A stretch of DNA of 64,000 nt from Bacteroidota bacterium (GTDB lineage: Bacteria > Bacteroidota > Bacteroidia > Chitinophagales > Chitinophagaceae), in the NCBI GenBank assembly GCA_026391455.1, contig JAPLEH010000035.1:124001-188000 (forward strand), read 5' to 3'. The position numbers and the translations under genes are program-made. Position 1 is the first letter of the stretch. Each line of letters begins with the position of its first letter. Below, in pieces: positions 12,058 through 54,507 of this stretch. The notes under the pieces are model-generated. The model was given only the letters and a program-made list of their open reading frames with translations, was not told the origin of the DNA and ran no database searches.

Positions 12058-13018
12058 TGGCACGTAATATTTCGCTGAGTACGGCCTGCGCTGCCCATAC
12101 ACGGTTGCCGGCTTCCTGCGTTACGATGCTGCTATTGCTGTCGAGTACTTCATCACTCAGTTCTACATTTCTGCGTACCGGCAGGCAGTGCATCACACGG
12201 GCATTATGAGTCAGTTGCAATTTTTTCTGTGTGAGCATCCATTTGGGGTCACTTTCATAGATCTTACCATAATCTGTATAGGTGCTCCAGTTTTTTACAT
12301 ATACAAAATCAGCATCTTTCAATGCTTCATCCTGGTTGTGGGTAATGGTGGCCCCTTTTGTAAAAACTTCACTCAGTTCATAATCTTCCGGATGTGTGAT
12401 CACAAAATCTGCTTTACCCCAGGCATTGACCCATTGCGCAAAGCTATTGGCCACACATTGGGGAAGTGGCTTTACATGGGGAGCCCAACTGAGAACGATT
12501 TTCGGTTTTCGGTTTTGGGTTTTCGATTTCTCCAATTCTTCCGTAATGGTAATGATATCGGTAAGGCTTTGTAACGGGTGCAGGGTGCTGCTTTCGAGAC
12601 TCACAACGGGTATACCTGCGTATTTGATAAACTGTTTGATATAAAGTTCGCTGTAATCATCTTCCCTGTTTTTCAACGAAGGAAACGTGCGGATAGCGAG
12701 GATATCAAAATATTTGCCGAATACGGGCGCTGCATCTTTTACATGCTCTACGGTTGAGCCGCTCATGATGGCTTCCTCTTCGAATTCAAGCGCCCAACCT
12801 TCGCTGCCCACATTGAAAACAATGGCTTCCATACCCAGGTTTTGTGCCGCGATCTGTGTACTGAGCCGTGTACGCATACTGGGATTGAGAAATAAACAAC
12901 CGATACGTTTATTGGTGCCGAGGGTGTTGTCGGCAAAAGGATTGGCTTTATAAGCAAGGGCCTTTTGCACCAATGCATCAATATTGTTTACGTCCTGTAC
13001 AGAAATAAAATGTTTCAA
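12050..13018 (-). CDS. N-succinylornithine (or N-acetylornithine) carbamoyltransferase
   Basis: A 322-residue carbamoyltransferase of the AOTCase/SOTCase branch. It carries the carbamoyl-phosphate motif SMRTRLS (residues 47-53), HPLQSLTD and HCLPVRRN. Acyl-substrate choice in this branch depends on one residue, Glu92 in Xanthomonas AOTCase and Pro90 in Bacteroides fragilis SOTCase. Here the aligned residue is Val90 (in SGSTVEH), which published mutant work associates with succinylornithine use. Residues about 163-173 (EKSKTQNRKPK) form a longer, basic loop encoded by a five-unit 7-base tandem repeat, unlike the short linker I expect in relatives. The gene lies between argD and argB. Confidence 0.92.
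   Translation of the reverse strand: MKHFISVQDVNNIDALVQKALAYKANPFADNTLGTNKRIGCLFLNPSMRTRLSTQIAAQNLGMEAIVFNVGSEGWALEFEEEAIMSGSTVEHVKDAAPVFGKYFDILAIRTFPSLKNREDDYSELYIKQFIKYAGIPVVSLESSTLHPLQSLTDIITITEELEKSKTQNRKPKIVLSWAPHVKPLPQCVANSFAQWVNAWGKADFVITHPEDYELSEVFTKGATITHNQDEALKDADFVYVKNWSTYTDYGKIYESDPKWMLTQKKLQLTHNARVMHCLPVRRNVELSDEVLDSNSSIVTQEAGNRVWAAQAVLSEILRANG
12497..12531. repeat. Heptanucleotide tandem array inside the carbamoyltransferase gene
   Basis: Five consecutive 7-base units of consensus GGTTTTC (read on the plus strand; sense strand GAAAACC) with one or two variations each. The array encodes the basic loop at about residues 163-174 and keeps the reading frame. It belongs to the same 7-base class as the arrays found in spacers across the window. 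Confidence 0.85.
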
Positions 13019-13041
13019 TGGCTGATTCAGATTTTATGGTT

Positions 13042-14184
13042 TTATGCAGATAATGCAGAAATACTTTCTTTAATGGAATCAATGAATTGCTCGGCATCCC
13101 GTTTCTTTAATGCGAGGGAGGGGAGCAAACGTATCACATTCGGTTTAGCTTCACCGGTAAAAATTTTTTGTTCCCACAACAAATTTTTACGCAGGTCTTT
13201 CAGTGATTCGGGTACATCGAAACCGATCATCAGTCCGCGCCCTCTCACATTGTCGAGTTCAGAAATGGCCGACAGTTCATCACGGAGATATTTACCCACC
13301 ATTACCGCATTGCCCATCAGTTTTTCTTCTTCAATGATCTCCAGTACAGCCAATGCTGCTGCACAGGCCAGGTGATTGCCTCCGAACGTGGTGCCCAATT
13401 GAAAATGCTTGGGTTTTATTTGCGGGGCAACAATAATACCTGCTACCGGAAAACCATTTCCCATCCCTTTGGCCATGGTATAGATATCTGCATTGACCCC
13501 GGCAAAATCGTGACTGAAGAATTTACCGCTACGGCCATAGCCGCATTGTACGCTGTCGGCAATATATACAGCACCATGTTTAGTACAAAGTGTACGGATA
13601 GCGCGCAGAAAATCGTCGTCCGCTATGTTGATACCGCCCACACCCTGTATGCCTTCAATGATCACTGCGGCGATCTGGGCGCTATTTTTTTTGAAACAGG
13701 CTTCCAGTGCATCCTCATCATTGAAAGGAAGAAAGATTACGTTATCTGTTTCATTGACAGGGGCTACATAATTTTTATTGTCGGTGGCAGCTACGGCCAG
13801 TGAAGTACGTCCGTGAAAGGATTTGCTGAATGCAATGATCTTTTTTCGTCCGGTATGAAAGCTGGCGAGTTTCAGTGCATTCTCATTTGCTTCGGCGCCG
13901 CTGTTGCAAAGAAACAATTGATAGTCGGGCTTGTTGGATATACGTCCGAGCTTTTCTGCCAGTTCAGTTTGAAGGGGTATGCGTATGGAATTGGAATAAA
14001 ATGCAATCTTTTCCAATTGCTCTTCTATACGCTGTACCCAATGCGGGTGTGTATGTCCGATGCTGATCACTGCATGACCACCATAAAGATCTAGGTATTG
14101 CTCACCTTTATCGTCCCACACATAGGAGCCTTTTGCTTTTACGATAGTAATGTCGTTGATTGGGTAAACGTCGAAGAGGTTCAT
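13042..14184 (-). CDS. argD: Acetylornithine / succinylornithine aminotransferase
   Basis: A 380-residue class III PLP-dependent aminotransferase that converts N-acylglutamate semialdehyde to N-acylornithine. LCNSGAEANENALKLA binds the cofactor phosphate, FHGRTSLAVAAT is typical, the PLP lysine is in YTMAKGMGNGFP, and GTTFGGNHLACAAALAV closes the active site. It begins the downstream part of the operon. The spacer before it holds a heptad array rather than the proC gene often present here in related clusters. Confidence 0.95.
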   Translation of the reverse strand: MNLFDVYPINDITIVKAKGSYVWDDKGEQYLDLYGGHAVISIGHTHPHWVQRIEEQLEKIAFYSNSIRIPLQTELAEKLGRISNKPDYQLFLCNSGAEANENALKLASFHTGRKKIIAFSKSFHGRTSLAVAATDNKNYVAPVNETDNVIFLPFNDEDALEACFKKNSAQIAAVIIEGIQGVGGINIADDDFLRAIRTLCTKHGAVYIADSVQCGYGRSGKFFSHDFAGVNADIYTMAKGMGNGFPVAGIIVAPQIKPKHFQLGTTFGGNHLACAAALAVLEIIEEEKLMGNAVMVGKYLRDELSAISELDNVRGRGLMIGFDVPESLKDLRKNLLWEQKIFTGEAKPNVIRLLPSLALKKRDAEQFIDSIKESISALSA

Positions 14185-14187
14185 TGT

Positions 14188-14236
14188 TGGAGTTGTAGTA
14201 TTTAGTAATAAGTTTTAAGTAATGGGTTATAAGTAA
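14188..14236. repeat. Heptad array upstream of argD (left arm of a long inverted repeat)
   Basis: Seven 7-base units with consensus TAAGTAA, nearly all with GT at positions 4-5. Bases 14213-14234 pair with 14728-14749: 18 of 22 positions match, and on the minus-strand RNA the four differences become G-U pairs. Confidence 0.8.
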
Positions 14237-14292
14237 ATCGCGTATTTGTATTTATCAATCATTTCATTACTCTTCTAGTAGCATTGGTGTAA

Positions 14293-14649
14293 TCAATTCT
14301 CCTGCACTTTTCCAATCAATCTTATCAGCATAGCCTTTATTTCGTTTACTAATAGGGAAAGTGTCTTAAAATCATTTTCAGTTAAATAAACAAGATCCTT
14401 TGCAAGAATCAGAAAATACTCGGATTCATTCGCAGATCCTAACGCGATATTTAAAAACCTGGCAAAATCCCTATTTGTTTTTCTACCACATCCCTCTGCC
14501 ACATTGGCTGCTACAGATGAAGCAGACCTTCTTAACTGACTCACGATTCCAAACATCTCTTTCTTCGGGAATTGCTCAGTTGCTTTATAAACGGATAATG
14601 TAAAAGCATGCGCTTTTTCCCAGACCTTCAGGTCTTTGAAATTTTGCAT
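14293..14649 (-). CDS. Four-helix bundle protein (23S rRNA intervening-sequence family)
   Basis: A 118-residue protein of the four-helix bundle / 23S rRNA intervening-sequence family (S23/Avd-like). The diagnostic start is MQNFKDLKVWEKAHAF, followed by SQLRRSASSVAANVAEGCGR and FLNIALGSANESEYFL. These proteins were first found in inserts of 23S rRNA genes and are also scattered as orphan genes; they form pentameric bundles and some serve diversity-generating retroelements. No reverse transcriptase or variable repeat is nearby. The gene sits inside the arginine operon between argC and argD, has 7-base arrays on both sides in opposite orientation, and looks like an insertion. Its function here is unknown. 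Confidence 0.88.
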   Translation of the reverse strand: MQNFKDLKVWEKAHAFTLSVYKATEQFPKKEMFGIVSQLRRSASSVAANVAEGCGRKTNRDFARFLNIALGSANESEYFLILAKDLVYLTENDFKTLSLLVNEIKAMLIRLIGKVQEN

Positions 14650-14701
14650 TTAATACGGATTAAAAACTTTACTAACTTAATAATTCAATTCACATCACTT
14701 C

Positions 14702-14749
14702 TTACCACTTTCAACGTAAAACCTAAAACTTACAACCCACCACTCAAAA
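14702..14749. repeat. Heptad array at the argC end (right arm of a long inverted repeat)
   Basis: Six 7-base units (14702-14743) with consensus TTAAAAC, each ending in AC. The array runs over the argC stop codon region (14744-14746). It is the same sequence class as 14188-14236 in opposite orientation. Confidence 0.8.
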
Positions 14750-15721
14750 ATATCCCGCTTTTAAACGCAACCCTGCACACTCATCAAAACCAAACAACAG
14801 ATTCATATTCTGAATGGCTTGTCCGCTGGCACCTTTAAGTAAATTATCAATGGCGGAATGTACCACCAGTTTTGAACCAGCCCTTTCCAGTTGTATCACT
14901 GCATTATTCGTATTCACTACCTGTTTCAGAAAGATCGGATCGCGGCTGATATGCGTAAAAGGATGCCCTGCATAATAGGTTTCGTATAACTTATAGAGTT
15001 CTTCCACTGACAGGTCGCATTGCAAAGTGGAACTGATGAATATGCCTCTCGTGAAGTCACCGCGCCAGGGCACGAAATGGATATCGATATGGCCGTTGGG
15101 CTGCAGCGTACGAACGGATTCTCCGATTTCCCCAAGGTGCTGGTGCGTTAATGTTTTATACGCCTGAATATTATTGGCCCTCCAGCTAAAATGAGAAGTG
15201 GTGCTGAGCGATTGGCCTGCACCCGTAGACCCGGTGATACCGGTGGTATAAACATCTCCCAATAAACCGGCCTGTGCCAAAGGAAGTAAACCCAATTGGA
15301 TAGCAGTGGCAAAGCAACCGGGATTTGCAATATTCGAAGCGGAACGTATCTTTTCTTTCTGCAATTCCGGTAGACCGTACACAAATTGACGATTGCCGAT
15401 AGCAGAACGGGATGATAACCGAAAATCGTTGGCCAGATCAATGACTTTGAATGTATCCGGAAACGAATTTTCAGCCAGAAACTTGGCGGATTCCCCATGA
15501 CCCAGACAAAGAAACAATACATCAATATCAGTGGATAGAGTACCGGTGAAGGAGAGATCCGTTATACCCAGCAGATCCTGGTGTATGGTATGGATGGCTT
15601 TGCCAGCATTGCTGCGGCTGTGTACGAATGAGGTCTCCACACTGGGGTGATTTAACAACAAACGTATTAATTCACCTCCGGTGTAGCCTGCGCCTCCAAT
15701 TATTCCTGCTTTAATAGCCAT
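14744..15721 (-). CDS. argC: N-acetyl-gamma-glutamyl-phosphate reductase
   Basis: A 325-residue NADPH-dependent reductase that makes N-acylglutamate semialdehyde. The N-terminal Rossmann motif is GIIGGAGYTGGELIRLL, and the catalytic cysteine is in ANPGCFATA (near residue 134). HFVPWRGDFTRGI and the C-terminal NLLKGASGQAIQNMN are standard. Its 3' end runs into a heptad array. It lies 11 bases after argG. Confidence 0.96.
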   Translation of the reverse strand: MAIKAGIIGGAGYTGGELIRLLLNHPSVETSFVHSRSNAGKAIHTIHQDLLGITDLSFTGTLSTDIDVLFLCLGHGESAKFLAENSFPDTFKVIDLANDFRLSSRSAIGNRQFVYGLPELQKEKIRSASNIANPGCFATAIQLGLLPLAQAGLLGDVYTTGITGSTGAGQSLSTTSHFSWRANNIQAYKTLTHQHLGEIGESVRTLQPNGHIDIHFVPWRGDFTRGIFISSTLQCDLSVEELYKLYETYYAGHPFTHISRDPIFLKQVVNTNNAVIQLERAGSKLVVHSAIDNLLKGASGQAIQNMNLLFGFDECAGLRLKAGYF

Positions 15722-15732
15722 TATTTTGGTAG

Positions 15733-16932: not shown

Positions 16933-16950
16933 GGTATTTGGCTGGTTATT

Positions 16951-17664: not shown

Positions 17665-17689
17665 CGTTATAAAATTGTGATAGAAAGGT

Positions 17690-17746
17690 TCACCAGTCCT
17701 GGAAAATTGTTTGCCGGGGTAACTTCACTGACAGGGACCATGGTGA
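17690..17746 (-). promoter_or_regulatory. Alternative stem after the arginine leader
   Basis: On the minus-strand RNA, TCACCA and GTCC (17746-17741 and 17738-17735) can pair with GGAC and TGGTGA (17699-17690) with a 2-base bulge. This uses the loop and one base of the 17728-17763 hairpin, so the two are either mutually exclusive or form a pseudoknot. No clear U-tract follows, so the mechanism is unclear. Confidence 0.4.
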
Positions 17747-17882: not shown

Positions 17883-17883
17883 C

Positions 17884-18411: not shown

Positions 18412-19106
18412 AGCAGGAATATGGCCGGACGTTTATGTATATCCGGAATGTCTTTTTTCCATTCGTTCACCGTCTTTGTCTTTATCCATTCATCCGGGCC
18501 GGTAATATTGGTCGCTATGCAGAGCCGGGTATTCCCATTGCAATTTTTTATGATTGCATCGATGAGCTGATTATTTCGGTAGGGTGTTTCAATAAACACC
18601 TGTGTGCAGTCTTGTTTGGCAGATAAGTTTTCCAGTTCACGGATGGCTTTGATGCGCTGTTGATTATCGATTGGCAGGTAGCCATGAAAATGGAATTGCT
18701 GCCCGTTCATACCGCTGGCCATCAATGCAAGCAGGATAGACGCTGGTCCCACGAGCGGTTTCACCTTCGCATGCATATCCTGGGCAATGGCCACCAATGC
18801 CTGACCTGGGTCGGCCACACCGGGGCAACCTGCTTCACTCACAATACCAACGGTAAGGCCCTCTTTCATATACTGGCGGAAAGCCGGTTGGGTATCTTCA
18901 CCGATTACGTGCCAGGTATAGTCGTCGATAATAATTTCTTCTCCGGGATGCACCAATCTCCACAATTGTTTGAAATAACGCCGGGTGGTGCGCTCATTTT
19001 CTACAAAGAATACACGGCATTCACGGATCGCCGATGTGATATAGGTGGGAATGACACCAAGTGCCTGATCATCTAACTGGGAAGGGATAAGATATACAGT
19101 GGACAT
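18399..19106 (-). CDS. RsmI-like SAM-dependent methyltransferase (tetrapyrrole methylase fold)
   Basis: A 235-residue protein of the tetrapyrrole-methylase fold, closest in look to RsmI, which 2'-O-methylates C1402 of 16S rRNA. The SAM loop is VSEAGCPGVADPG, followed by PLVGPASILLALMASG and VFIETPYRNNQLI. It is shorter than typical RsmI (about 280), so it may be the compact paralogue common in Bacteroidota, and the exact target is uncertain. Its start abuts the EI24 gene stop, suggesting co-transcription. Confidence 0.85.
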   Translation of the reverse strand: MSTVYLIPSQLDDQALGVIPTYITSAIRECRVFFVENERTTRRYFKQLWRLVHPGEEIIIDDYTWHVIGEDTQPAFRQYMKEGLTVGIVSEAGCPGVADPGQALVAIAQDMHAKVKPLVGPASILLALMASGMNGQQFHFHGYLPIDNQQRIKAIRELENLSAKQDCTQVFIETPYRNNQLIDAIIKNCNGNTRLCIATNITGPDEWIKTKTVNEWKKDIPDIHKRPAIFLLYSC

Positions 19107-19852
19107 CAGTTGTTTTTTACCTGGTGAACACTCAATGTGGCTGCAATGATTGCATAGGCCGGAGCCAGTATTACGATCAGGTGCATCATATAAAAAAGTA
19201 ACCCATTGCCGATCGCCAGCCCTTTATGATGGCCGGTAAAGGCAATACTTTGTGCGGGTGTAAAACCAGTACGGGCGATACTGTAATCGAGCATGGAAAA
19301 ACCAAAATAATAACATTCCATCAGCAGGGCAACGACCGGCGTGATCCAGCCCACCACCGGCACCAATGATAAAAGGATCAGAGCAACAAGGTATACCGAT
19401 TGCCAGCCGCAGTTACGAAGTGCCAGCAGTATATTTCGTACACAATCTTTCCGGATATCCGGCCAATTGAAGGCATGTTCTTTTCCTTCTATGATCGCCT
19501 CCGTTTTTTCGCTCAGGTAGGCAAACACCGGCGAACCGATGATGAGAATTAGATATTTAAATAGGGAAAAATAAAAAAGAAAGAGCATGAGCCGGAGCAT
19601 CATCCCGGTCATGACGAATAAAAAACTGAGCCATTCGTTCCGTTTTTTCTGCAGCCAGGTTTCGATGCTTAACTGGTTGCTCACCCAGGATACCACATGG
19701 TCTGCCGATTGCCAGAAGATGAACATACCGGCCACAAAGAGAAATATATAGATAATGCCGGGCAGCATGATCCATTTAAACAGGCGGTGTTGACGAATAA
19801 AGCGATGTGCCTCGCCCCAGGATTGTACAGCAATAACTATTTCTTTCAGCAA
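19106..19852 (-). CDS. EI24 domain membrane protein
   Basis: A multi-pass membrane protein with the EI24/CysZ-like fold (LPGIIYIFLFVAGMFIFW, LMLFLFYFSLFKYLILIIGSP, YLSEKTEAI, ALLMECYYFGFSMLDY). The open frame reaches 19972, but residues 1-40 of that version look non-coding and contain a 7-base repeat shared with 22134, so I place the start at an in-frame TTG (19852), right before LKEIVIAVQSW, where the family usually begins. That gives 248 residues. CysZ transports sulfate in enterobacteria; here the substrate is unknown. It overlaps the RsmI-like start by one base. Confidence 0.8.
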   Translation of the reverse strand: MLKEIVIAVQSWGEAHRFIRQHRLFKWIMLPGIIYIFLFVAGMFIFWQSADHVVSWVSNQLSIETWLQKKRNEWLSFLFVMTGMMLRLMLFLFYFSLFKYLILIIGSPVFAYLSEKTEAIIEGKEHAFNWPDIRKDCVRNILLALRNCGWQSVYLVALILLSLVPVVGWITPVVALLMECYYFGFSMLDYSIARTGFTPAQSIAFTGHHKGLAIGNGLLFYMMHLIVILAPAYAIIAATLSVHQVKNN

Positions 19853-19883: not shown

Positions 19884-19904
19884 GATAGTGAATAGTGAAA
19901 AGAT
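19884..19904. repeat. Short heptad repeat (GATAGTG, AATAGTG)
   Basis: Two and a half 7-base units. The 18 bases 19885-19902 (ATAGTGAATAGTGAAAAG) recur exactly at 22135-22152, on the other side of the mpg and transporter genes, in the same orientation. Confidence 0.75.
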
Positions 19905-20632: not shown

Positions 20633-22135
20633 TTGAAAAAAAATAACGGGTTGAGCAAACAACAAAAAAAATTCGTTGCATTACTATCGGGCCTGGTAGT
20701 GGCCCTGTTACTTTATTTCATCAATCCATTCGGGGTGCATGATCAGGCTGCCTTATTATTGGCCATCGCAGGCCTCATGATCACCTGGTGGGTTAGCGAA
20801 GCCCTGCCCATGCCGGTGGTGGCCTTGCTGCCACTTATTTTGTTTCCCCTGTTACGTATCTCCAGTCTCGAATCTGCCGCTGCACCTTATGCGAATCCGG
20901 TTATCTTTTTATTTCTGGGTGGCTTCATGCTGGGGCTGGCCATAGAGAAATGGAACCTTCACCGCCGTATTGCCCTGAATATTGTACGTCTTACCGGTAC
21001 CAGTGGCGACCGCATCGTACTGGGCTTTATTTTAGCTACCGGCTTGTTGAGTATGTGGCTGAGCAATACCGCTACCACTATGATGATGTTTCCCATTGCA
21101 CTCTCGGTGATACATGTAATGAAAGAGAACCACCGGGGCGAGGGACATCTGGCAAATTTTTCCCTTACCATTATGCTGGCTATCGCCTATGCATCTAATA
21201 TCGGAGGCATTGCCACTATAATTGGTACACCTCCCAATGTGGCCTATGTAGGATATATTCAGAAGAAATATAATTACAGCATTGACTTTGTGCGCTGGAT
21301 GCTGATCTGTACGCCGCTGGCCTTGCTATTGCTTACCTGTTTGTATCTCACCATGGTAAAATGGATGTTTCCCAACCGCATCAAATCCGATCTGGCCACC
21401 AAAAATCTCGTGGATGAAGAAATTGCCAAACTGGGCCCACTTTCAAGTGCAGAAAAAAGAGTGCTGGTCATATTTTGCGGTACGGCACTGCTCTGGATAT
21501 TCCGTGAGTTGCTGAATAATATACAGGGATGGGTAAAGCTGGATGATACGATCATTGCTTTGCTCTGCGCAGTGGCATTATTCATTTGTCCATCCGGCAG
21601 TATAAAACGGGGAGCAAAAGAAAGTATTGATGAGGAACCCGAAACCAATGCCCTGCTCGAATGGGGCGATACATCTAAAATGGCCTGGGGTATATTATTA
21701 TTATTTGGGGGTGGTATATCACTGGCGGGCGCGTTGGAAAAAGCAGGATTGATGCAGCAGATGGGACAATGGCTGGCGCAGTTTTCGGGCAATGGGTTCC
21801 TGCTGGTTTTTGTGATTACGCTGGTATCGCTTTTCATTAGTGAGGTAATGAGCAATGTAGCCCAGGTGATCGTATTTGCACCCGTGATCTCCTCCCTGGC
21901 CGATGCAGCGGGAATGAATCCGTTGCTGCTGGGCATACCAATGACGCTGGCGGCCAGTTGCGCCGGTATGCTGCCTATGGGCACGCCACCCAATGCCATT
22001 GTATTTGCAAGCGGTCATATCAAACTGCGGCAGATGACGAAGGCTGGGTTTGTGATGAATATCATATCGGTGATACTGATTACGTTGTTTTGTTGGTTTT
22101 TGTTGCCGTTGCTGATGAGTTCAGTTAATAACTAA
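20633..22135 (+). CDS. DASS/SLC13-type sodium:dicarboxylate symporter
   Basis: A 500-residue transporter of the divalent anion:sodium symporter family with about 11-12 membrane segments. Both substrate/sodium clamp motifs are visible: SNTATTMMMFPIA in the first repeat and SEVMSNVAQVIVFAPV in the second, plus PMGTPPNAIVFASG. It likely imports C4-dicarboxylates or related anions. The ORF begins with TTG at 20633; the nearby ATG at 20626 is out of frame, and the first internal Met lies within a membrane segment, so TTG is probably the true start. Confidence 0.92.
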   Translation: MKKNNGLSKQQKKFVALLSGLVVALLLYFINPFGVHDQAALLLAIAGLMITWWVSEALPMPVVALLPLILFPLLRISSLESAAAPYANPVIFLFLGGFMLGLAIEKWNLHRRIALNIVRLTGTSGDRIVLGFILATGLLSMWLSNTATTMMMFPIALSVIHVMKENHRGEGHLANFSLTIMLAIAYASNIGGIATIIGTPPNVAYVGYIQKKYNYSIDFVRWMLICTPLALLLLTCLYLTMVKWMFPNRIKSDLATKNLVDEEIAKLGPLSSAEKRVLVIFCGTALLWIFRELLNNIQGWVKLDDTIIALLCAVALFICPSGSIKRGAKESIDEEPETNALLEWGDTSKMAWGILLLFGGGISLAGALEKAGLMQQMGQWLAQFSGNGFLLVFVITLVSLFISEVMSNVAQVIVFAPVISSLADAAGMNPLLLGIPMTLAASCAGMLPMGTPPNAIVFASGHIKLRQMTKAGFVMNIISVILITLFCWFLLPLLMSSVNN

Positions 22136-22154
22136 TAGTGAATAGTGAAAAGTA
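22134..22154. repeat. Short heptad repeat after the DASS gene
   Basis: Two AATAGTG units and a partial third. It contains the second copy of the 18-base sequence also found at 19885-19902, starting at the transporter stop codon. Confidence 0.75.
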
Positions 22155-23394: not shown

Positions 23395-23573
23395 CACAGC
23401 TATTAAAGTTTTTTTCATTGTCGGACGATGAAACGTGCTACAGCCTGGAAATTAGTAAACGCGGAAGCCTTTTTGTAATTGCCCAATCCTGCAAAATGTT
23501 TAGTCGTCCGGTACGAATTCGAAAAGTACAACAAAAAAAAGACCTGAAAAAGAGAAAAATTGCTGCATGGGAC

Positions 23574-23608
23574 TTGTTGCTGGTTGCTTGATGCCGGTTG
23601 CGGGTTGG
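23574..23608. repeat. Heptad array, consensus NGGTTGC
   Basis: Five consecutive 7-base units such as TGGTTGC and CGGTTGC. Its complement (GCAACCN) matches the units of the arrays at 23795 and 24008, so the three are related and lie in opposite orientations. Confidence 0.8.
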
Positions 23609-23794
23609 GGCGTGTAATGACAGAGGTACTTAATACTTTCCAAACCGGTTTAAAACAAGATAACGTGTTGATTATATAAGGATTAACCCTTTGGGTAGTA
23701 GTATTTACGCAAGTGTTTTCAGTCAGAGAATTTACAAAATTGCAGGCAATTAAAAGTTAACAACCGTTAGGTACGCAAACGGCCACCGCAGGCA

Positions 23795-23837
23795 CACCAA
23801 CCAACTAACAAGGAAGCAACCCGCAACTAACAACCAT
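23795..23837. repeat. Heptad array, consensus CAACTAA/CAACCCG
   Basis: About six units beginning with CAAC, all 7 bases long except one of 8. CAACTAA occurs twice. Part of the same dispersed class. Confidence 0.75.
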
Positions 23838-23893
23838 TATTGTCCGGGGAAAGTTTTTGCAAAACCCTGAAACATTGCCCCAGAGCGGGTTCT

Positions 23894-24007: not shown

Positions 24008-24042
24008 CAACAATAACTAACAACCCGCAACCTGCAACTACA
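24008..24042. repeat. Heptad array running into the upp stop codon
   Basis: Units AACTAAC, AACCCGC, AACCTGC and a degenerate fifth. The array overlaps the last codons of upp (24038-24042). Confidence 0.75.
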
Positions 24043-24688
24043 TCTGCACCTTCGTTCCAAAGGCCAGATCTCCGGCATCACCCAGTCCCGGTACGATATA
24101 CCCCTTCGCTGTAAGCTCATCATCAATATCCCCGCACCAAACGGTGGCAGACGGCTCTTCGCGAACCACATATTCGATACCCACCGTGCAGGCAATGGCC
24201 GCTACAATATGAATCTCTTTAGGACGGCCTTCTTCTTTCAGAAAATGAATGGTCTTCACCAGTGAAGAACCTGTGGCCAGCATGGGGTCTGAAATAATCA
24301 CCACCCTGTTTTCCAACTCGGGACAGGATACATAATCCAGGCTGATTTCAAAACTGCCATCTTTATTATGTTTCCGGTAGGCCGAAATAAATGCATTGTC
24401 CGCCTGATCAAAATAATTGAGCAATCCATTATGCAACGGAAGCCCGGCTCGCAGGATAGTGGCCAGCACCGGCTGCTCTTTTAGCATTTTATGCATGGCC
24501 GTTCCCAGCGGAGTTGGTATTTCCCTTTCTTCCCAGGTCAGTTGCTTACTTATTTCATAGGCGGCCACTTCACCAATACGCTCCAGGTTGCGGCGAAACC
24601 GCATCCGGTCGGTCTGAATATTTACGTTACGTAACTCACTGACCCAATTGCTGACCAATGAATGCTGCTGACTTAAATTGATGACCAT
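24038..24688 (-). CDS. upp: Uracil phosphoribosyltransferase
   Basis: A 216-residue salvage enzyme that makes UMP from uracil and PRPP. The PRPP-binding loop is VIISDPMLATGSSLV, ATILRAGLPLHNGLL is the second PRPP contact, and the C-terminal YIVPGLGDAGDLAFGT is the uracil-binding hood. Start 24688 (MVINLSQQHSLV) is preferred over 24766, because the extension is atypical and overlaps the promoter. It is divergent from the AnmK-like gene, with interleaved promoters. Confidence 0.95.
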   Translation of the reverse strand: MVINLSQQHSLVSNWVSELRNVNIQTDRMRFRRNLERIGEVAAYEISKQLTWEEREIPTPLGTAMHKMLKEQPVLATILRAGLPLHNGLLNYFDQADNAFISAYRKHNKDGSFEISLDYVSCPELENRVVIISDPMLATGSSLVKTIHFLKEEGRPKEIHIVAAIACTVGIEYVVREEPSATVWCGDIDDELTAKGYIVPGLGDAGDLAFGTKVQM

Positions 24689-25455: not shown

Positions 25456-27012
25456 ATGCAGGATACCAAAAACATGGCCACCTCCACTGAAAATAAAAAA
25501 GACCCGCAACCCGGGTCGATGGAAGAAATATTATTATTCCGGAAAATCCAACACCAGTTTCCCCGGCAATTCCGTAAGGCTTTTCCGGATAAGCTGGCCG
25601 CCAAATCTGTAATCATTATTCCATCCATTACATTGGACCAGGAAATATTATCGAAGGTAAGCGGTCATATTCATTATGAAGAACGATTGCTTTGCCTGCT
25701 CATGTTGCTTCGTATGCCACGCACCCATGTGGTGTATATTACCAGTATGCCCATCGATCCTGTCATCATAGATTATTACCTGCACCTGCTTCCGGGAATA
25801 ACCCGTCATCATGCACAGCAACGGCTTACCATGCTGAGTTGTTACGATGCATCGGCCAAATCACTCACGGAGAAAATACTGGACCGCCCCCGCCTGATTG
25901 AACGGATAAAGAAGAGTATTCCTTCGGGAAATGTGGTACACATGGCTTGTTTCAACGTAACCAAACATGAACGCACCCTTTCAGTAAAACTGGATGCACC
26001 TATTTATGGATGCGATCCGGAACTGTATGAACAGGGAACGAAGAGCAACAGCCGTAAAATATTCAAGCAATGCGGGCTTACTGTACCTGCTGGCTATGAA
26101 GACCTGAAAAATGAAGAAGAGATTGTAGCCGCACTGGGGGATCTGAAACTGAGCGATCCTTCATTGCGCAAAGCGGTGGTGAAAATGAACGATGGCTTTT
26201 CCGGTGAAGGGAATGCCATTTTTTCCTATGAAGGCATTGATGAATCCACAGAATGGAAACCCTGGATCGCGAGTCAACTGTCTTCGCGGCTGAAGATCGT
26301 GGCTGGTGATCTTTCGTATAAAGAATTCATGTACAAATTTCAATCCATGGGTGGCATCGTGGAGGCATTTGTAGAAGGGGATATAAAAACATCACCCTCT
26401 GTTCAATGCCGTATCAATCCACTGGGTGATTGCAAAGTGATCTCCACACATGATCAGGTAGTGGGCGGCGAAGGGGGGCAGGTATATATGGGTGCCTATT
26501 TCCCTGCCGATGAAGCCTATTCCATTGAAGTGGGAGAAGCGGGACTTAAAGTAGCAGAGGCTCTGCAAAAAAATGGTGTGATGGGGCGCTTTGGTGTGGA
26601 CTTTATTTCAGTGAAAGAAAAGAACAATACCTGGAAACATTACGCCATTGAAATAAACCTGCGGAAAGGAGGCACCACGCATCCCTATATTTTACTGCAG
26701 TTTCTCACCGATGGGGATTATGATTATGAAAACGGATTGTACCTGACGGCTAACCGGCAAACCCGTTATTATTATTGTTCAGACAATCTGCGCAGTGAAA
26801 AATATATCGGCATCACGCCACCTGATCTGATTGATATCGCCATGCTGCATAACCTGCATTATGATGGCACTTCACAGGAAGGAGTCATGTTTCACCTCAT
26901 TGGCGCCTTGTCACAATATGGCAAACTGGGTGTGGTATGTATCGGCAGTACACCGGAACGGGCAAAGAATTTTTATGAGCAAACGGTGAAAGTGCTGGAT
27001 GGGGAATGCTGA
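25456..27012 (+). CDS. PGM1-related ATP-grasp peptide ligase
   Basis: A 518-residue protein with the layout of PGM1-type peptide ligases: an N-terminal pre-ATP-grasp region (about 20-180), an ATP-grasp core (about 190-440; NSRKIFKQCGLTVPAGYE, RKAVVKMNDGFSGEGN, GRFGVDFISV, HYAIEINLRKGGTTHP) and the PGM1 C-terminal domain (TPPDLIDIAMLHNLHYD, GVMFHLIGALSQYGKLGVVCIG). Founding member PGM1 couples a peptide to a non-proteinogenic amino acid in pheganomycin synthesis. The substrates here are unknown and no precursor peptide gene is obvious. Start could also be ATG 25474. It is probably co-transcribed with the AnmK-like gene. Confidence 0.85.
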   Translation: MQDTKNMATSTENKKDPQPGSMEEILLFRKIQHQFPRQFRKAFPDKLAAKSVIIIPSITLDQEILSKVSGHIHYEERLLCLLMLLRMPRTHVVYITSMPIDPVIIDYYLHLLPGITRHHAQQRLTMLSCYDASAKSLTEKILDRPRLIERIKKSIPSGNVVHMACFNVTKHERTLSVKLDAPIYGCDPELYEQGTKSNSRKIFKQCGLTVPAGYEDLKNEEEIVAALGDLKLSDPSLRKAVVKMNDGFSGEGNAIFSYEGIDESTEWKPWIASQLSSRLKIVAGDLSYKEFMYKFQSMGGIVEAFVEGDIKTSPSVQCRINPLGDCKVISTHDQVVGGEGGQVYMGAYFPADEAYSIEVGEAGLKVAEALQKNGVMGRFGVDFISVKEKNNTWKHYAIEINLRKGGTTHPYILLQFLTDGDYDYENGLYLTANRQTRYYYCSDNLRSEKYIGITPPDLIDIAMLHNLHYDGTSQEGVMFHLIGALSQYGKLGVVCIGSTPERAKNFYEQTVKVLDGEC

Positions 27013-27020
27013 TCAGTGAT

Positions 27021-27048
27021 GTTACATGTTGAATGTTGGATGCTGAAT
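27021..27048. repeat. Heptad array, consensus GTTGAAT
   Basis: Four consecutive 7-base units (GTTGAAT, GTTGGAT and variants) in the 67-base spacer between two convergent genes. Confidence 0.8.
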
Positions 27049-27079
27049 GATACCAGCAGCACTTATGCATTTTAGCAAT

Positions 27080-49204: not shown

Positions 49205-49231
49205 AGATCATTACATTAGTTGGTTATACAC

Positions 49232-49393
49232 TTAGTTGTCTAAAGGAATGCGGCTGATGTCGTTGAATTTTTTCTTTCTGGTTTTAAATACCCAGGTGAG
49301 CATTACCAGAAAGAAAACAAAAAATCCAACCAGTGATGCCACACCCATGGCATCCACACCGCCTATTTTTTCTAAATAATGAATGAATTTCAT
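49232..49393 (-). CDS. ccoQ: CcoQ/FixQ-like small subunit
   Basis: A 53-residue single-span protein (MKFIHYLEKIGGVDAMGVA; helix LVGFFVFFLVMLTWVF; basic KTRKKKF). It lies between the fused ccoNO gene and ccoP, as CcoQ does. An in-frame start at 49417 would add eight residues. CcoQ stabilises the oxidase complex. Confidence 0.85.
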   Translation of the reverse strand: MKFIHYLEKIGGVDAMGVASLVGFFVFFLVMLTWVFKTRKKKFNDISRIPLDN

Positions 49394-49437
49394 TTTGTCT
49401 TTTTTGTCTATCAACAATCAATATGCTTGTTTACAGC

Positions 49438-51576
49438 TTATTCTTTTTTTGCTATGGGTTTGGGCTCACTTTCAATATCCCGGCCCAATCGTTGCAGGTA
49501 AGCGATCACTGCAATGATCTCTTTGTTCGGTTCTGTTTCGATATCCGCTTTTTTCAAATCTGCTGTTATCTCCTCCGCCTGTTTCATCAATTCATCATTG
49601 GCGATTTTGTCATATCCTTCCGGATAGGGTACGCCCAGTGTACGCATAGCCCTTATTTTGGCCGGCGTGGTGGATGTATTCAGTTTATTACGAAACAGCC
49701 ATGTATATTGGGGCATCAGCGAACCTTCTGTCATTAATCGCGGATCGTACAGGTGATTGTAGTGCCAGGAGTTCGTACGCCTGAGCTTTTGACCTCCTTC
49801 CCGGGCCAGATCGGGTCCGGTACGCTTACTTCCCCATTGGAAGGGGTGGTCGTACACGAATTCACCAGCTTTCGAATACTCGCCATAGCGGGCCACTTCA
49901 TCCCGGAATGGGCGTATCATCTGCGAGTGACAGGTATAACATCCTTCGCGCACATAAATATCACGGCCCTGCAACTCAAGCGGTGTATAAGGTTTTACAC
50001 TGGCGATGGTGGGCACATTTGATTTTACGAGGAAGGTGGGTATCATTTGCACCAGTCCACCAATGGCCACCAGTATGAGGCTCAATACCAGCATCGTGAG
50101 CGGTTTGCGTTCGAGTACCCGGTGCCAGTATTCTTTTTTGTGACTGGTCTCTTTTACCAATGGGGCAGCTTCCGCTTCTTCATTGGGTATGAATTTACCT
50201 TTGGCAATGGTTTTGGTAAGGTTATAAGTCATGATCACCGCACCAATGAGGTATAACAAACCACCGATACTCCGAGCCACATACATCAACTTGATATTGG
50301 TAACGGTTTGCATGAAGTCAAACTTCAGTTGTCCTTCGGGTGTAAACTGTTTCCACATGATACTTTGTTCAAATCCGGCCCAGTACATGGGTACTGCATA
50401 AATAATGATACCGATGGTGCCCAGCCAGAAGTGATTGGACGCTAATTTTTTCGAGTAAAGTGTGGTACCCCACATCTTAGGGATCATATAGTAAAGAATG
50501 GCAAAGGCCAGGAATCCATTCCAACCCAATCCGCCGATATGTACGTGGGCAATGGTCCAGTCGCTAAAGTGAGAAATTGCGTTCACGCTTTTTAAACTCA
50601 GCATAGGTCCTTCAAATGTGCTCATACCATAGCAGGTAATGGCAACCACCATGAATTTCAGCACGGGATCTTCTCTTACTTTATCCCAGGCTCCCCGCAG
50701 GGTAAACAAACCGTTGAGCATACCACCCCAGCTTGGTGCGATCAGCATGATGGAGAATACCACACCCAGTGATTGAGCCCAGTCGGGCAACGCTGTATAA
50801 AGAAGGTGGTGCGGACCGGCCCAGATATAGATAAAGATGAGCGCCCAAAAGTGAATGATGGAGAGGCGGTAAGAATATACCGGTCGGTTGGCTGCTTTGG
50901 GCAGAAAATAATACATAAGCCCCAGTACCGGGGTGGTTAGGAAGAAGGCCACCGCATTGTGTCCGTACCACCACTGCACCAGCGCATCCTGTACCCCGGC
51001 AAACCAACTGTAGCTGCCGGTAGCAGAGTAAGGCAGTTCTATAGAACGTACGATATGCAGTAAAGCAACGGTAACCCAGGTGGCGATATAAAACCAGATG
51101 GCCACATAGATATGTTTTTCGCGGCGTTTGATGATCGTTCCAAACATATTGATACCAAAAACAACCCAGATAAGTGTAATGGCCAGGTCGATGGGCCAGA
51201 TCAATTCCGCATACTCGGCACCGTTAGTAAGGCCCAGCGGCAAGGTAATGGCGGCTGCCACAATGATAAGCTGCCAGCCCCAGAAATGGATCCAGCTCAG
51301 TTTGTCGCTGAACATACGGGCCTTGCAGAGGCGCTGAAGGGAATAGTAAATACCTGCGAAAGAGGCATTACCAACAAATGCAAAGATGATGGCATTGGTG
51401 TGCAGCGGACGGAGACGTCCGAACGTAGTGGGGGCAAAATTGAGACTGCTGGCCGGAAAATAAATCTGTACGGCCACCCACAGGCCCACCAGCATGCCCA
51501 CCAATCCGAAAATGATGGTGGCATAACCAAACGCCTTTACAATCTTGTTGTCGTAATAGAACTTTTCTACTTGCAT
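49438..51576 (-). CDS. ccoNO: Fused cbb3-type cytochrome c oxidase subunits I and II
   Basis: A 712-residue fusion. Residues about 1-470 are CcoN with 12 membrane helices and heme/copper ligands (RPLHTNAIIFAF, WYGHNAVAFFLT, GPHHLLYTALPDW, DWTIAHVHIGGLGWNG). After a linker, residues about 500-712 are CcoO with one c-heme site (GCYTCHSQMIRP) and the PFRDEVARYGEYSKAGEF region. The fusion is typical of Bacteroidota. The complex is a high-affinity terminal oxidase and proton pump used at low oxygen. Order with ccoS upstream and ccoQ downstream supports a single operon. Confidence 0.96.
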   Translation of the reverse strand: MQVEKFYYDNKIVKAFGYATIIFGLVGMLVGLWVAVQIYFPASSLNFAPTTFGRLRPLHTNAIIFAFVGNASFAGIYYSLQRLCKARMFSDKLSWIHFWGWQLIIVAAAITLPLGLTNGAEYAELIWPIDLAITLIWVVFGINMFGTIIKRREKHIYVAIWFYIATWVTVALLHIVRSIELPYSATGSYSWFAGVQDALVQWWYGHNAVAFFLTTPVLGLMYYFLPKAANRPVYSYRLSIIHFWALIFIYIWAGPHHLLYTALPDWAQSLGVVFSIMLIAPSWGGMLNGLFTLRGAWDKVREDPVLKFMVVAITCYGMSTFEGPMLSLKSVNAISHFSDWTIAHVHIGGLGWNGFLAFAILYYMIPKMWGTTLYSKKLASNHFWLGTIGIIIYAVPMYWAGFEQSIMWKQFTPEGQLKFDFMQTVTNIKLMYVARSIGGLLYLIGAVIMTYNLTKTIAKGKFIPNEEAEAAPLVKETSHKKEYWHRVLERKPLTMLVLSLILVAIGGLVQMIPTFLVKSNVPTIASVKPYTPLELQGRDIYVREGCYTCHSQMIRPFRDEVARYGEYSKAGEFVYDHPFQWGSKRTGPDLAREGGQKLRRTNSWHYNHLYDPRLMTEGSLMPQYTWLFRNKLNTSTTPAKIRAMRTLGVPYPEGYDKIANDELMKQAEEITADLKKADIETEPNKEIIAVIAYLQRLGRDIESEPKPIAKKE

Positions 51577-51597
51577 AAGCGGGATTGTTTATTGGGA

Positions 51598-51759
51598 TTA
51601 TTGTTTTTTGGAGGAAGCGGGTTTGTCATCAAACAGAATACGGGAAGAGGGGGAATAGTCATCTTCAAACTGACCTGATTTTACGCCCCATAAGAAAGCG
51701 AACAAAAACAGGGCTGCAATGGAAATACTTGCGATCAGCAAAATCAGGATTACACTCAT
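51598..51759 (-). CDS. ccoS: cbb3 oxidase assembly protein CcoS
   Basis: A 53-residue protein from ATG 51759 to TAA 51598. A single helix (ILILLIASISIAALFLFAF) is followed by LWGVKSGQFEDD, the signature of CcoS, and a short polar tail. CcoS is required for cofactor insertion into cbb3 oxidase. It lies between the ccoI ATPase and the ccoNO gene, 21 bases upstream of the latter. Confidence 0.93.
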   Translation of the reverse strand: MSVILILLIASISIAALFLFAFLWGVKSGQFEDDYSPSSRILFDDKPASSKKQ

Positions 51760-51874
51760 GTTAACAGGTTAATATGCGGGTAAAAATATTTTCGGAGGCT
51801 GCGGCAAAGGATAAGCAGTATCAGGAGGAAATATGATTTTTATCACGGCACTGTTATAATAAAGCCACCGCCTG

Positions 51875-54280
51875 TCAGAGGCGCATCCGGCTGGCCAGTA
51901 AACTGCTGGTACCGAAGGTGATAAGTAAAATGCTCAGTGAGCTGCTCGGCATAAGGATGGCCGCAATGAGCGGAGAGAGATTGCCCTGTACGGCAAAAAA
52001 TAATCCTATTATATTATATACAATGGATAATACAAAGCTGGCGATCACAATATTCCGGTTGGCCCGGCAAATGGCAAAGAATGTAGTGAGCCGGGAAAGC
52101 TGCCGGGCTTCAATAATGGCATCGCTCGAAGGCGTAAAGGTGTTGGTTTGTTCGGCCACAGCCACACCAATATCGCTTTGCTTCAGCGAAACAGCATCAT
52201 TCAATCCGTCGCCGATCATCATTACTTTTTCGCCCTGTTGCTGCAGGTGTTGAATATAATGAAGTTTGTCTTCCGGTTTCTGGTGAAAGAGCAGGGTAGT
52301 GCCTTTCCCAAAGAGTTGCTGCAGGTTTTTACGTTCTGTTTCATTGTCGCCGGAAATCACGGATAACCGGTAGTGGGGTTTTAGTTTTCTAACCAATACC
52401 GGAATAAAATCACGGTAATGATTCTGAAAATAAAAGGCACCGGCCAGCTTGTTTTCCAGGCTTACATATACGGCCGTACCAGCGGAGGAATTCTTTTTCC
52501 CGGATACATATTCAAAGGAGCCGATCTTCAGGAAGTCGCCTTCCACCAGGCCTTCAATTCCTTTGCCGGTGGTTTCTTTGAACCCATCCACTTTCAATCG
52601 TTTTCCATCGGAAAGATGTGATGCAAGTGCCCGGCTCAGGGGGTGTACTGAGCTGGCGGCCAGTGCCGCCACCTGCTGCAATTGATAAGCAGTAAGTGTG
52701 GTTCCTTCGTAGCGGATATCCTGTTGTTGGTTAGTAGTAAGGGTTCCGGTTTTGTCGAATACAATATGTGTGGTTTTGGCAATATCTTCGATGGTCTGGG
52801 CATTGCGTAAAAAGAAATGATTGCGGCCCAGTATGCGCAGGATATTTCCATTGGTAAACGTATTGGACAGGAGCAGCGCGCAGGGGCAGGCAATGATGAA
52901 TATAGAAGTAACAGCAGGCCACAACCGGGCCGGGTCAGTAATCTGCCAGTAGATTGCCGTGGCAAGTGCTATGCTAAGTACGATGTAGGTGAAATACCGG
53001 CTGAGCAGGTGTACAAAGGATACGTTTTTTTCAACGGTAGTTTTTTCTTTACCGGCACTGCCCTCGTTATTCCAGAGTTTAGTCAGGTAGCTTTGGGCCA
53101 CTTCTTTTACCACCAGCACTTCTATATTCCCTCCGGTTTGTTTGCCGCCGGCATAAACCAGTTCGCCTACTTCTTTCAGTACGGGCAGCGATTCGCCGGT
53201 TACAAAGCTATAATCGATAAACGCTTTTCCTTTTGTAAGAATACCATCGGCAGGGATCAGTTCTTCATGATGAATAAGCAGCGTTTGTCCGGGTTTAATA
53301 TCCGGCAGGGCAGTTGGTATTTCGGTTTCCTCGGTTAATACTGATACGGCAATGGGAAAATAGGAGGTGTAATCCCGTTCGAAGGATAATTGCCGGTAAG
53401 TTTTGTCTTGTAGTATGCGGCCTGCCAGCATAAAAAATACAATACCTGTCATGGAATCGAAATAGCCGCCACCCGTACCACTGAGTACTTCCCATGCACT
53501 GCGGATAAAGGTGATGATAATGGCCAGTGCGATAGGGGCATCAATATTCAGAAATTTATGCCGCAGGCTTTTCCACGACGATTCATAGAAAGGCAGGGAG
53601 GAATACAGCAATACCGGTATGGCCAATGCAAAATTGAGCCAACGGAAAATTCCCCGCAATCCCTCTTCACTCGCATCAATACCCAGGTATTCCGGAAAGC
53701 TCATAAGCATGATATTGCCAAAGCAAAATCCGGCTATACCTAACTGATAGACCATGCTTTTATTGATCGCTGGTCTCTTTTGTTTAAGGTCATTGAGGCT
53801 GATATAGGGTTCATACCCGATGCTGGTAAGCAGTTCGGCGATGCGCCGCAGGCTGGTTTGTGGCGTTTGAAAAATGATTTCCGCTTCTTTGCGGGTAAAG
53901 TTTACCTTGGAGGAAATAACCGAATCATCCAGCCGGTGCAGGTTTTCCAGCAGGTAGAGGCAGGAACTACAGTGCATTTGCGGAAGGTAAAAAGTAACAT
54001 GCACCTGGTTCTCATTGCGGAAGCTGATCAGTTGTTGCTGTAACTTTTCATCGTCCAGAAAGGCAAATTTGTCTTTGCGAACATGAATTCGCTGGTTGAG
54101 GCCTGGGTTTTTGTTCAGGGCATAGTAATCGCAGAGGTCGTTTTGGTTCAGGATATGGAATACCATTTTGCAGCCTTCGCAGCAAAACACTTTATCATCT
54201 GTATGAATAAGCGTGTCAGCGCAGGTTTCACCGCAGTGATAACAGCGTAGTTGTTCGTTGGTGGCAATGCCTTTCACCAT
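51875..54280 (-). CDS. ccoI: CcoI-type copper-translocating P-type ATPase
   Basis: An 801-residue P1B-type ATPase. The N-terminus has a Cys-rich metal-binding domain (CYHCGETC, CCEGCKMVF) and a degenerate heavy-metal domain with HCSSCLYLLENL. Then come the membrane CPC motif (CPCALLLS), the phosphorylated Asp (DKTGTLT), TGES actuator loop, HPLSRAL and GDGLNDAVSL. The family supplies copper to the cbb3 oxidase. It heads the oxidase cluster; upstream is a TGAT-N4-ATCA palindrome. Confidence 0.94.
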   Translation of the reverse strand: MVKGIATNEQLRCYHCGETCADTLIHTDDKVFCCEGCKMVFHILNQNDLCDYYALNKNPGLNQRIHVRKDKFAFLDDEKLQQQLISFRNENQVHVTFYLPQMHCSSCLYLLENLHRLDDSVISSKVNFTRKEAEIIFQTPQTSLRRIAELLTSIGYEPYISLNDLKQKRPAINKSMVYQLGIAGFCFGNIMLMSFPEYLGIDASEEGLRGIFRWLNFALAIPVLLYSSLPFYESSWKSLRHKFLNIDAPIALAIIITFIRSAWEVLSGTGGGYFDSMTGIVFFMLAGRILQDKTYRQLSFERDYTSYFPIAVSVLTEETEIPTALPDIKPGQTLLIHHEELIPADGILTKGKAFIDYSFVTGESLPVLKEVGELVYAGGKQTGGNIEVLVVKEVAQSYLTKLWNNEGSAGKEKTTVEKNVSFVHLLSRYFTYIVLSIALATAIYWQITDPARLWPAVTSIFIIACPCALLLSNTFTNGNILRILGRNHFFLRNAQTIEDIAKTTHIVFDKTGTLTTNQQQDIRYEGTTLTAYQLQQVAALAASSVHPLSRALASHLSDGKRLKVDGFKETTGKGIEGLVEGDFLKIGSFEYVSGKKNSSAGTAVYVSLENKLAGAFYFQNHYRDFIPVLVRKLKPHYRLSVISGDNETERKNLQQLFGKGTTLLFHQKPEDKLHYIQHLQQQGEKVMMIGDGLNDAVSLKQSDIGVAVAEQTNTFTPSSDAIIEARQLSRLTTFFAICRANRNIVIASFVLSIVYNIIGLFFAVQGNLSPLIAAILMPSSSLSILLITFGTSSLLASRMRL

Positions 54281-54350
54281 AAGAGAAAATATGGGCGCTA
54301 AAATAAACGGGCATCCCGGGTAGCAGGATGAGCAAGTTCACTGCAAAAAG

Positions 54351-54362
54351 TGATTTTCATCA
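54351..54362. promoter_or_regulatory. FNR/CRP-like palindrome TGAT-N4-ATCA
   Basis: TGATTTTCATCA, the core of an FNR-type site (TTGAT-N4-ATCAA), lies 71-82 bases upstream of ccoI and 146-157 bases upstream of the receiver-Crp/Fnr gene, in their shared divergent spacer. The flanking positions do not match the full consensus. Confidence 0.45.
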
Positions 54363-54411
54363 GGCAGCGGGTTTTGATTACTTTTACTTTGCAACCCTGC
54401 TTTGAACGGAG

Positions 54412-54507
54412 AACTAACAACGAGTAACCAGTGACCAACTTATTCAACTTATGTAACCTATGCAACTTATGTAACTTCTTCAACCTCTTAAACTAACAAC
54501 CAACTCC
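54412..54507. repeat. Array with 7- and 9-base periods upstream of the receiver-Crp/Fnr gene
   Basis: Four 7-base units (such as AACTAAC) are followed by six 9-base units ending in AAC (TTATTCAAC, TTATGTAAC and variants), and then AAC-rich sequence up to the ATG at 54508. It makes up almost the whole leader of the downstream gene. Confidence 0.8.

Follow-up and report, generated by a model that had tools for sequence, protein, structure and literature searches.

A 64-kb window of the 5.5-Mb genome of a Chitinophagaceae bacterium (Bacteroidota; GenBank assembly GCA_026391455.1, contig JAPLEH010000035.1, positions 124,001 to 188,000) contains a series of short tandem arrays, two of which are the inverted arms of a single element enclosing a gene of the family PF05635 (23S_rRNA_IVP; its products are called IVPs below). 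We consider it probable that IVP genes and their arms form a family of elements, that the gene-less arrays are dispersed or decayed kin of these arms, and that each IVP recognizes its own anchor word, much as RAYT proteins do; recognition and mobility are what we infer, from sequence comparison and by analogy. The arrays look like one dispersed element system because their words fall into families and most of them match the arms of the twelve IVP elements of the genome. The support comes at the level of sequence: arms match each other, gene-less arrays share words and periods with them, and closely related IVPs at different sites have words in common.

An IVP gene between inverted arms

The element of the window lies on the minus strand at 14185..14743, between argC (14744-15721) and argD (13042-14184). 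Its left arm (14695..14746, minus strand; score 15.2) consists of heptads that read RGTTKTA in operon sense and overlaps the argC stop codon. The right arm (14188..14240, minus strand), the complement of the left one, is built of the heptads CTTATAA and CTTAAAA and stops immediately short of the argD start codon; its scored segment is 14194-14236 (score 10.4). The sequence-only reading, which was made from the letters without database searches, had listed arrays at 14702 and 14188, and these are the two arms. Between them lies the IVP gene (14293..14649, minus strand), encoding 118 amino acids of a four-helix-bundle family (E value 1.1e-40; 138.5 bits against the PF05635 cut-off of 33.8) with relatives of solved structure (2gsc, 2rld). 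Directly before its start stands TTTTTAATCCGTATTAA (14650..14666, minus strand), read by eye, and strings resembling TTTTAATCCGTA recur before the IVP genes of L116, L117, L120 and L121, with variants at L124 and L125, likewise judged by eye. The window has no Rfam match at the gathering score, and the element does not lie inside an rRNA gene.

The argininosuccinate synthase of the window has its best named relative in Agriterribacter humi (88% identity), and most of its named relatives are Chitinophagaceae. Among 80 related loci, 72 contain both argC and argD, with an IVP between the two genes in 10 and none in 62. All ten junctions with an IVP have arrays and span 408-509 bases, while arrays occur in only 4 of the 62 junctions without one, so the arms come with the element at this site. 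Among the first 40 loci listed, several relatives carry arrays at two fixed spots around argC and argD. The arg loci hold 19 IVP matches, all in operon direction, and 17 of them have an arm score of at least 14; the two low scores (L026:17463 and L030:8392) belong to elements wrongly cut by the script. Two arg operons contain two IVP elements each, one between argC and argD and another after argD; the pair in L031 belongs to two groups of the IVP tree and that in L051 to one.

These counts bear on the idea that the words of the genome come first and that IVP elements insert into pre-existing arrays. Insertion of this kind would likewise yield a word common to IVP arms and gene-less arrays, but a single array hit by an element would leave direct rather than inverted flanks. 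The scarcity of arrays in argC/argD junctions without an IVP speaks against it, as do the differences between the arms of the twelve resident elements and the words shared by close IVPs at different sites. We regard this explanation as very unlikely.

The correspondence of arms extends to the other IVP loci of the genome. There are 12 IVP matches, 11 of them over the Pfam cut-off and one with an internal stop. All 12 are accompanied by a periodic array on at least one side and nine by arrays on both sides, and in these nine the arm periods agree (8/8 in L117 and L125, 9/9 in L121 and 7/7 in the other six). In a matrix of all left against all right arms, the pair from one element scores highest in 11 of 12 rows and 8 of 12 columns (mean for own pairs 20.1 versus 10.6; none of 20000 permutations). 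Arms of different elements are dissimilar: no off-diagonal score is above 17, and their mean is 10.6. By eye, GTT is common to three of them.

The IVP loci of 30 other Bacteroidota genomes gave the same picture: own arms score 16.6 versus 10.5, and the 95th percentile is exceeded in 14 of the 30 (0 of 20000), with two mis-oriented loci, L128 and L134, counted in. Pooling the elements of Bacteroidota and cyanobacterial plasmids, with orientation based on the profile, we kept 112 of 117 (L259, L286, L314, L031.13817 and L030.8392 were left out) and found scores of 19.8 for own arms and 10.8 for swapped arms, 77 of the 112 exceeding the 95th percentile (0 of 5000 permutations). The longest reading frames on both sides follow the direction of the IVP in 106 of these 112 elements. 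Three elements on cyanobacterial plasmids, each an IVP with heptad arms, sit among CRISPR-Cas genes: those of Pseudanabaena and Anabaena (L159, L161) separate cas6 from cas4, and that of Picosynechococcus (L164) separates cas10 from a cmr3-type gene. Weak arm scores were found at three of the nine plasmid loci (12 in L158, 12 in L160 and 8.5 in L163). Outside the pooled set, L166 from an Azospirillum lipoferum plasmid has its IVP inside a 23S rRNA gene (Rfam match 286-3333); the stem of this rRNA intervening sequence (IVS) is built of heptads and has an arm score of 26. By its sequence, one true rRNA IVS has the same architecture as the spacer elements.

Complementary arms raise the question of whether they are selected only as stems of a processed transcript, cut by RNase III as in rRNA IVSs, with the repeats being incidental. 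Besides the complementarity, the common direction of the flanking reading frames favors this explanation, and one rRNA IVS is excised by RNase III according to the available text of PMC4990558. On the other hand, arm mismatches show no bias towards G:U pairs in the sense RNA (45 versus 41 and 29 versus 32, in 51 of 59 elements, the other eight being under the score limit), a stem can form without any repeated word, and a partner arm is missing for most gene-less arrays. Selection on the RNA stem alone therefore seems unlikely to us, and we return to elements whose arms would be recognized by the IVP.

Gene-less arrays and the words of resident elements

The arrays are real and far above chance. 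We scanned 451 kb of the genome, comprising the window and 20 further stretches, some of them picked for holding RGTT matches. At the lowest score limit, 49, 20, 26 and 11 segments with periods of 7, 8, 9 and 10 were detected, compared with 1, 0, 0 and 0 in a first-order Markov control. The original observation of heptamer arrays survives because of the excess at period 7, while the statement that almost all arrays have a 7-base period does not stand, given the 20 segments with period 8 and the 26 with period 9. An RGTT-anchored heptad pattern matches the whole genome 143 times, compared with 9 times for the reversed control, and is present in 167 of 296 Bacteroidota genomes. This pattern corresponds to the AAC core that the sequence-only reading took to be common to the arrays, yet other arrays of the same genome use different words: AGCTNNN, GRTGTAC, AATNGTG, AATTATG, the octads TAATNNGC and AAGWCCGN and the nonad RGTTNMADA (all named by eye). 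The reading was right in that the arrays are not all copies of one repeat and in that an anchor persists in otherwise variable units: units are degenerate with kept positions, and several words coexist in one genome.

Tandem short units are in excess in the spacers of this genome. A genome of the same family with neither RGTT nor IVP matches (G007) has 2, 1 and 1 segments at periods 7, 8 and 9 in 400 kb, none of them in spacers. Four genomes (G086, G283, G094 and G168) hold 354, 173, 36 and 45 RGTT matches yet at most one IVP match, and are candidates for orphan arrays or for another partner. Units of 10 bases resembling TGTTCATCTG form a separate family, clustered at L013 2907-3675, L018 3674-3803 and L012 18851-18942. 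A long nonad array with a GGACC core and ~16 copies (L008 12779-12924) is perhaps a coding repeat.

We compared the 77 gene-less intergenic arrays found in the 451 kb with the arms of the 12 resident IVP elements and with three shuffled arm sets. The resident arms match better than all three shuffled sets in 67 of the 77 cases. In 72, the period of the array equals that of its best-matching arm, with 14 nonads going to the nonad element and 18 octads to octad elements (0 of 20000 permutations). The 77 arrays share 42 spacers and are not independent, so the test was repeated with one array per spacer, the strongest: the shuffled sets were beaten in 40 of 42 cases and the periods agreed in 41 of 42 (0 of 20000). 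The differing words, which had been offered as an argument against dispersal, lose that force once they are sorted into families that mostly match resident IVP arms. Two Flavobacterium genomes behave similarly: 22 of 29 arrays in G170 beat the shuffled sets and 22 of 29 agree in period (p 0.001), and the corresponding counts in G206 are 35 and 37 of 43 (0 of 20000). The arrays of the present genome fit its own arms (20.1) better than those of G170 (15.9), G206 (16.2) and G033 (13.4).

In the window itself, the arrays reported by the sequence-only reading are recovered at the score limit of 10 used in our array listing, apart from three, at 19884 (2.1 copies), 23795 and 24008 (both irregularly spaced), that are present in the sequence but fall below it. 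Two gene-less arrays match a resident element better than shuffled arms. An AATAGTG array (22126..22153, plus strand), which overlaps the stop codon of a gene ending at 22135, has the word of L119 (match 15.0, best shuffled 11.0); the short ATAGTGA array (19885..19903, plus strand) upstream of the minus-strand gene 19106-19852 resembles it. A nonad array RGTTNMADA (54436..54493, minus strand; score 26.4), upstream of a start at 54508, has both the word and the period of L121 (37.0, best shuffled 13.0) and adjoins a heptad array (54404..54437, minus strand; score 11.0). No resident arm matches better than shuffled ones for the GGTTGCT array (23573..23614, plus strand; 11.0 versus 12.0) or for the ATGTTGA array (27019..27051, plus strand; 13.0 versus 14.5), which begins 7 bases past a gene end at 27012. 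The two irregular AAC arrays have orphan words. One (23795..23840, minus strand; GGTTGTT and GGTTGCG on the other strand) scores 22.0 with the orphan array L015:7033, and the other (24008..24045, minus strand) lies at the stop of the minus-strand gene 24038-24688. The remaining two lie in coding sequence. A TTTTCGG array (12496..12529, plus strand) falls within a minus-strand carbamoyltransferase gene (12050-13018) and corresponds to residues 164-175, a linker between two domains that varies in length and sequence among relatives; its word is like the left arm of L126 by eye. Another run of heptads (63421..63465, plus strand; score 14.1) lies in the minus-strand reading frame 61302-63893.

The orientation of arrays follows a rule: of those within 20 bases of a gene end, 39 have the G-richer strand leading away from the gene into the spacer and 2 have the opposite orientation, with one tie. 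The rule is weaker in other genomes (13 to 5 in G170, 23 to 9 in G206 and 3 to 2 in G086), and it is kept in convergent spacers (23 to 5 at the nearest stop). Placement by strand at gene ends is in print for the heptamers of Xanthomonas and Nostoc (available text of PMC4692102). This orientation prompted us to consider telomere-like growth at 3' ends; the idea was dropped, as no enzyme was found and unit numbers vary little in Flavobacterium.

The same placement next to stop and start codons would fit regulatory binding sites acting in translation or 3'-end control, as envisaged for the TAACTGA repeats in what is available of PMC4679880, and the similar position of the Xanthomonas and Nostoc heptamers is in line with this. 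But many words per genome would need many readers, and IVPs are the only class we met that varies with the words; furthermore, convergent spacers obey the same strand rule. A regulatory origin of the arrays is in our view quite improbable, and the association with IVPs remains the preferred reading.

Words, proteins and selection

If an IVP recognizes its arms, then words should follow proteins. The IVPs between argC and argD fall into two tree groups with different words by eye, RGTNNTA and GCTTAAW (with a GGTGTAA subgroup); 21 of the 64 inner branches of the tree are well supported. L095, a member of the RGTNNTA group at another site, has the same word and an arm score of 21.0 with L116. Over 5960 pairs of IVPs at different sites, arm similarity rises clearly only at an IVP similarity of at least 0.6, where 116 pairs have a mean arm score of 18.4 compared with 13.0 (standard deviation 0.3) under the null (0 of 3000). 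With a null from which same-site pairs are removed, 0 of 3000 is obtained both for all elements and without the clade of IVPs like that of L121; in a stricter test, with the same-site pairs left in the null, the values are 8 of 3000 and 334 of 3000, respectively. The excess persists in the 29 pairs left when this clade, cyanobacteria and arg elements are all removed (1 of 3000). An earlier version of the test, in which a motif filter dropped 48 entries and the null kept same-site pairs, had shown no excess in 42 close pairs (1432 of 5000; Mantel test 60 of 2000).

The elements of the L121-like clade contain 7.95 copies of GTTYA each, compared with 1.23 in 93 others (p 6e-12), and their arms are dominated by steps of 7, 8 or 9 depending on the element, which contradicts the proposal that arrays are built with a fixed step. 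The nonad pattern occurs in 7 of 18 genomes with an L121-like IVP of at least 63% identity and in 12 of 177 others (p 4e-4, with the identity limit set after viewing the list and kinship not corrected).

One site in Flavobacterium allowed a comparison of orthologous elements. The downstream gene was found in 118 of 121 genomes, and the best 30 of the 118 loci were taken: the element is present in 27, a 95-base spacer containing a short hairpin stands in one, and two are unreadable. In the 27 elements, anchor columns are kept, the bases between them vary, and lengths change by small steps of a unit: L168, L187 and L189 lack about one octad in the right arm, and the left arm of L188 is shorter. 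A weak register effect is seen in the arms, which are identical at 0.73 of positions when aligned in register and at 0.66 and 0.59 when shifted by a unit, and pairing within a species is barely better than with another species (permutation fractions 0.046 and 0.035). The IVP reading frame is whole in 26 of 27, and the median ratio of nonsynonymous to synonymous substitution rates (dN/dS) is 0.116 over 194 pairs, those of 325 with dS between 0.1 and 1.5. As judged from these coding sequences, the IVP is under purifying selection in Flavobacterium. Six polar positions are near-invariant over 73 IVPs, a set without broken or mis-oriented proteins, and Q34 and E71 are present in 73 of 73.

Unit-step length differences between orthologues are what polymerase slippage would produce, and slippage of heptamer scale in relaxed spacer DNA, with no element behind the arrays, was proposed by Mrazek 2007 (as cited in the available texts of PMC4679880 and PMC4692102); spacer arrays reported in several phyla agree with it. 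Slippage alone gives no reason to expect that two inverted arms ~400 bases apart agree in word and period, that arrays obey a strand rule at gene ends, that close IVPs have words in common at different sites or that anchor columns are kept beside variable neighbors. As the whole explanation it appears quite unlikely, although it may well contribute to the process that we favor.

In that process, an element consists of a left arm, a short stretch, the IVP gene, another short stretch and a right arm, the arms being degenerate tandem arrays of one word with a step of 7, 8 or 9 in mutual inversion, and every IVP lineage would own an anchor word. Most gene-less arrays, carrying the word and period of one resident IVP, would be its dispersed, one-armed or decayed kin. 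The IVP may bind the anchors that recur at regular intervals in its own arms, in DNA or in RNA form; such binding might keep the anchors conserved and let arrays spread in trans, by analogy with what RAYTs do for REPINs, with changes of length supplied by unit-step slippage. Anchors at a regular step in both arms, the arbitrary nature of the words and the words common to close proteins all point to arm recognition by the IVP. We know of no transposase motif in IVPs.

Several observations weigh against this account. No movement of arrays was observed, though no strains differing by a single gene-less array were compared. The IVP copies of the genome are at most ~50% identical, so the IVP itself does not look freshly copied, and 35 of the 112 pooled elements stay within the 95th percentile for swapped arms. 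Below a similarity of ~0.5, IVPs share no more of a word than expected by chance, and the arrays of G206 score as highly with the arms of a relative, G170, as with those of G206 itself. Most gene-less arrays have no matching partner arm: in 37 array-bearing spacers the ends match each other with a mean of 9.4, compared with 8.4 for swapped ends (1747 of 20000 permutations as high), and no more than 4 of the 37 lie above the 95th percentile of the swapped comparison. For ten of the 77 arrays, including those with the GGTTGCT and ATGTTGA words, the shuffled-arm test gives no partner among the resident IVPs, and RGTT arrays still occur in 9 of 64 genomes with no IVP match. Over 296 genomes, array and IVP counts correlate with a rho of 0.58, which is nearly equalled by the 0.50 of a control pattern, with kinship not corrected.

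The notion that every array is half of a hairpin was examined and dropped. An inverted partner within 600 bases scored better than those in 20 foreign neighborhoods for only 10 of 87 arrays, the control being weakened by shared words; the end-to-end test described above is the cleaner one, and its low count led to the same decision.

A wider generalization is possible, and we offer it tentatively: IVPs may be the readers of a widespread repeat-dispersal system, in which a ring of four-helix bundles with no known nuclease motif would read anchors 7-9 bases apart and arrays would spread in trans through the spacers of Bacteroidota and cyanobacteria, with rRNA IVSs being only its outposts in rRNA. 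If so, the unexplained heptamer repeats of many phyla would be footprints of one IVP system. On the main reading, too, the long-standing questions of why spacers contain heptamer repeats and of what S23p/IVP proteins do would merge into one testable system, in which each IVP would predict array words of its own genome.

Relation to known repeat systems

Heptamer repeats in several bacteria and their placement, S23p/IVP genes in rRNA IVSs and heptameric repeats in one IVS are already known. The rRNA IVSs contain a gene of the same PF05635 family enclosed by complementary arms, as in the elements described here. In its available text, PMC4990558 describes heptameric repeats before the S23p start in an rRNA IVS and a Xanthomonas IVP relative that forms a pentameric ring, and gives no known function for S23p/IVP; the word "intergenic" is absent from its main text. 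The present elements differ in lying between protein genes, in having a word of their own each and in sharing these words with gene-less arrays.

The STRR, LSSR and TAACTGA heptamers of cyanobacteria, Xanthomonas and Beggiatoaceae resemble our arrays in being tandem spacer heptamers, partly degenerate with kept positions, and in their strand-dependent placement near start and stop codons (available texts of PMC4679880 and PMC4692102). No gene is linked to these heptamers in what is available of the two papers; "S23", "four helix" and "intervening" are absent from the main text of PMC4679880, and "S23" from that of PMC4692102. LSSRs and STRRs are characterized by near-identical units made by slippage; the arrays here have degenerate units and also show unit-step changes of length. 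The Avd protein of diversity-generating retroelements offers a further comparison: the IVP of the window matches PF22296 (bAvd) weakly (E value 1.5e-4; 22.7 bits against a cut-off of 40), but the genome has no match to reverse transcriptase (PF00078).

Searches of the open-licence PMC literature on IVP genes or heptamer arrays, as far as texts were available, revealed no tie of IVP genes to array words outside rRNA, and the available parts of PMC4853749 and PMC5524665 contain no link between IVPs and array words. Within the scope of these searches, the tie between IVP genes and array words and the account of spacer IVP elements appear to be new.

The closest parallel is provided by REPINs and RAYTs. 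RAYTs are distinct single-copy genes, each with its own REPINs, and repeat and protein are thought to co-evolve (available text of PMC3116915). Here, too, dispersed extragenic repeats are cognate to a distinct single-copy gene. Unlike in REPIN/RAYT systems, the partner is a PF05635 protein, unrelated to the Y1/HUH transposase family Y1_Tnp, degenerate tandem arrays take the place of a palindromic signal, and the gene-less copies are mostly not inverted doublets, as judged by the few array spacers with matching ends. No transposition intermediate came to light, though no search was aimed at one. The four Y1_Tnp loci of the genome have no array of period 7-10; one Y1_Tnp match (L330, G000:C19:191310-191579) is flanked by a long inverted repeat (score 86) and is perhaps another insertion sequence. 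By analogy, the arrays and their IVPs are best compared to a REPIN/RAYT system that would be built on an unrelated protein.

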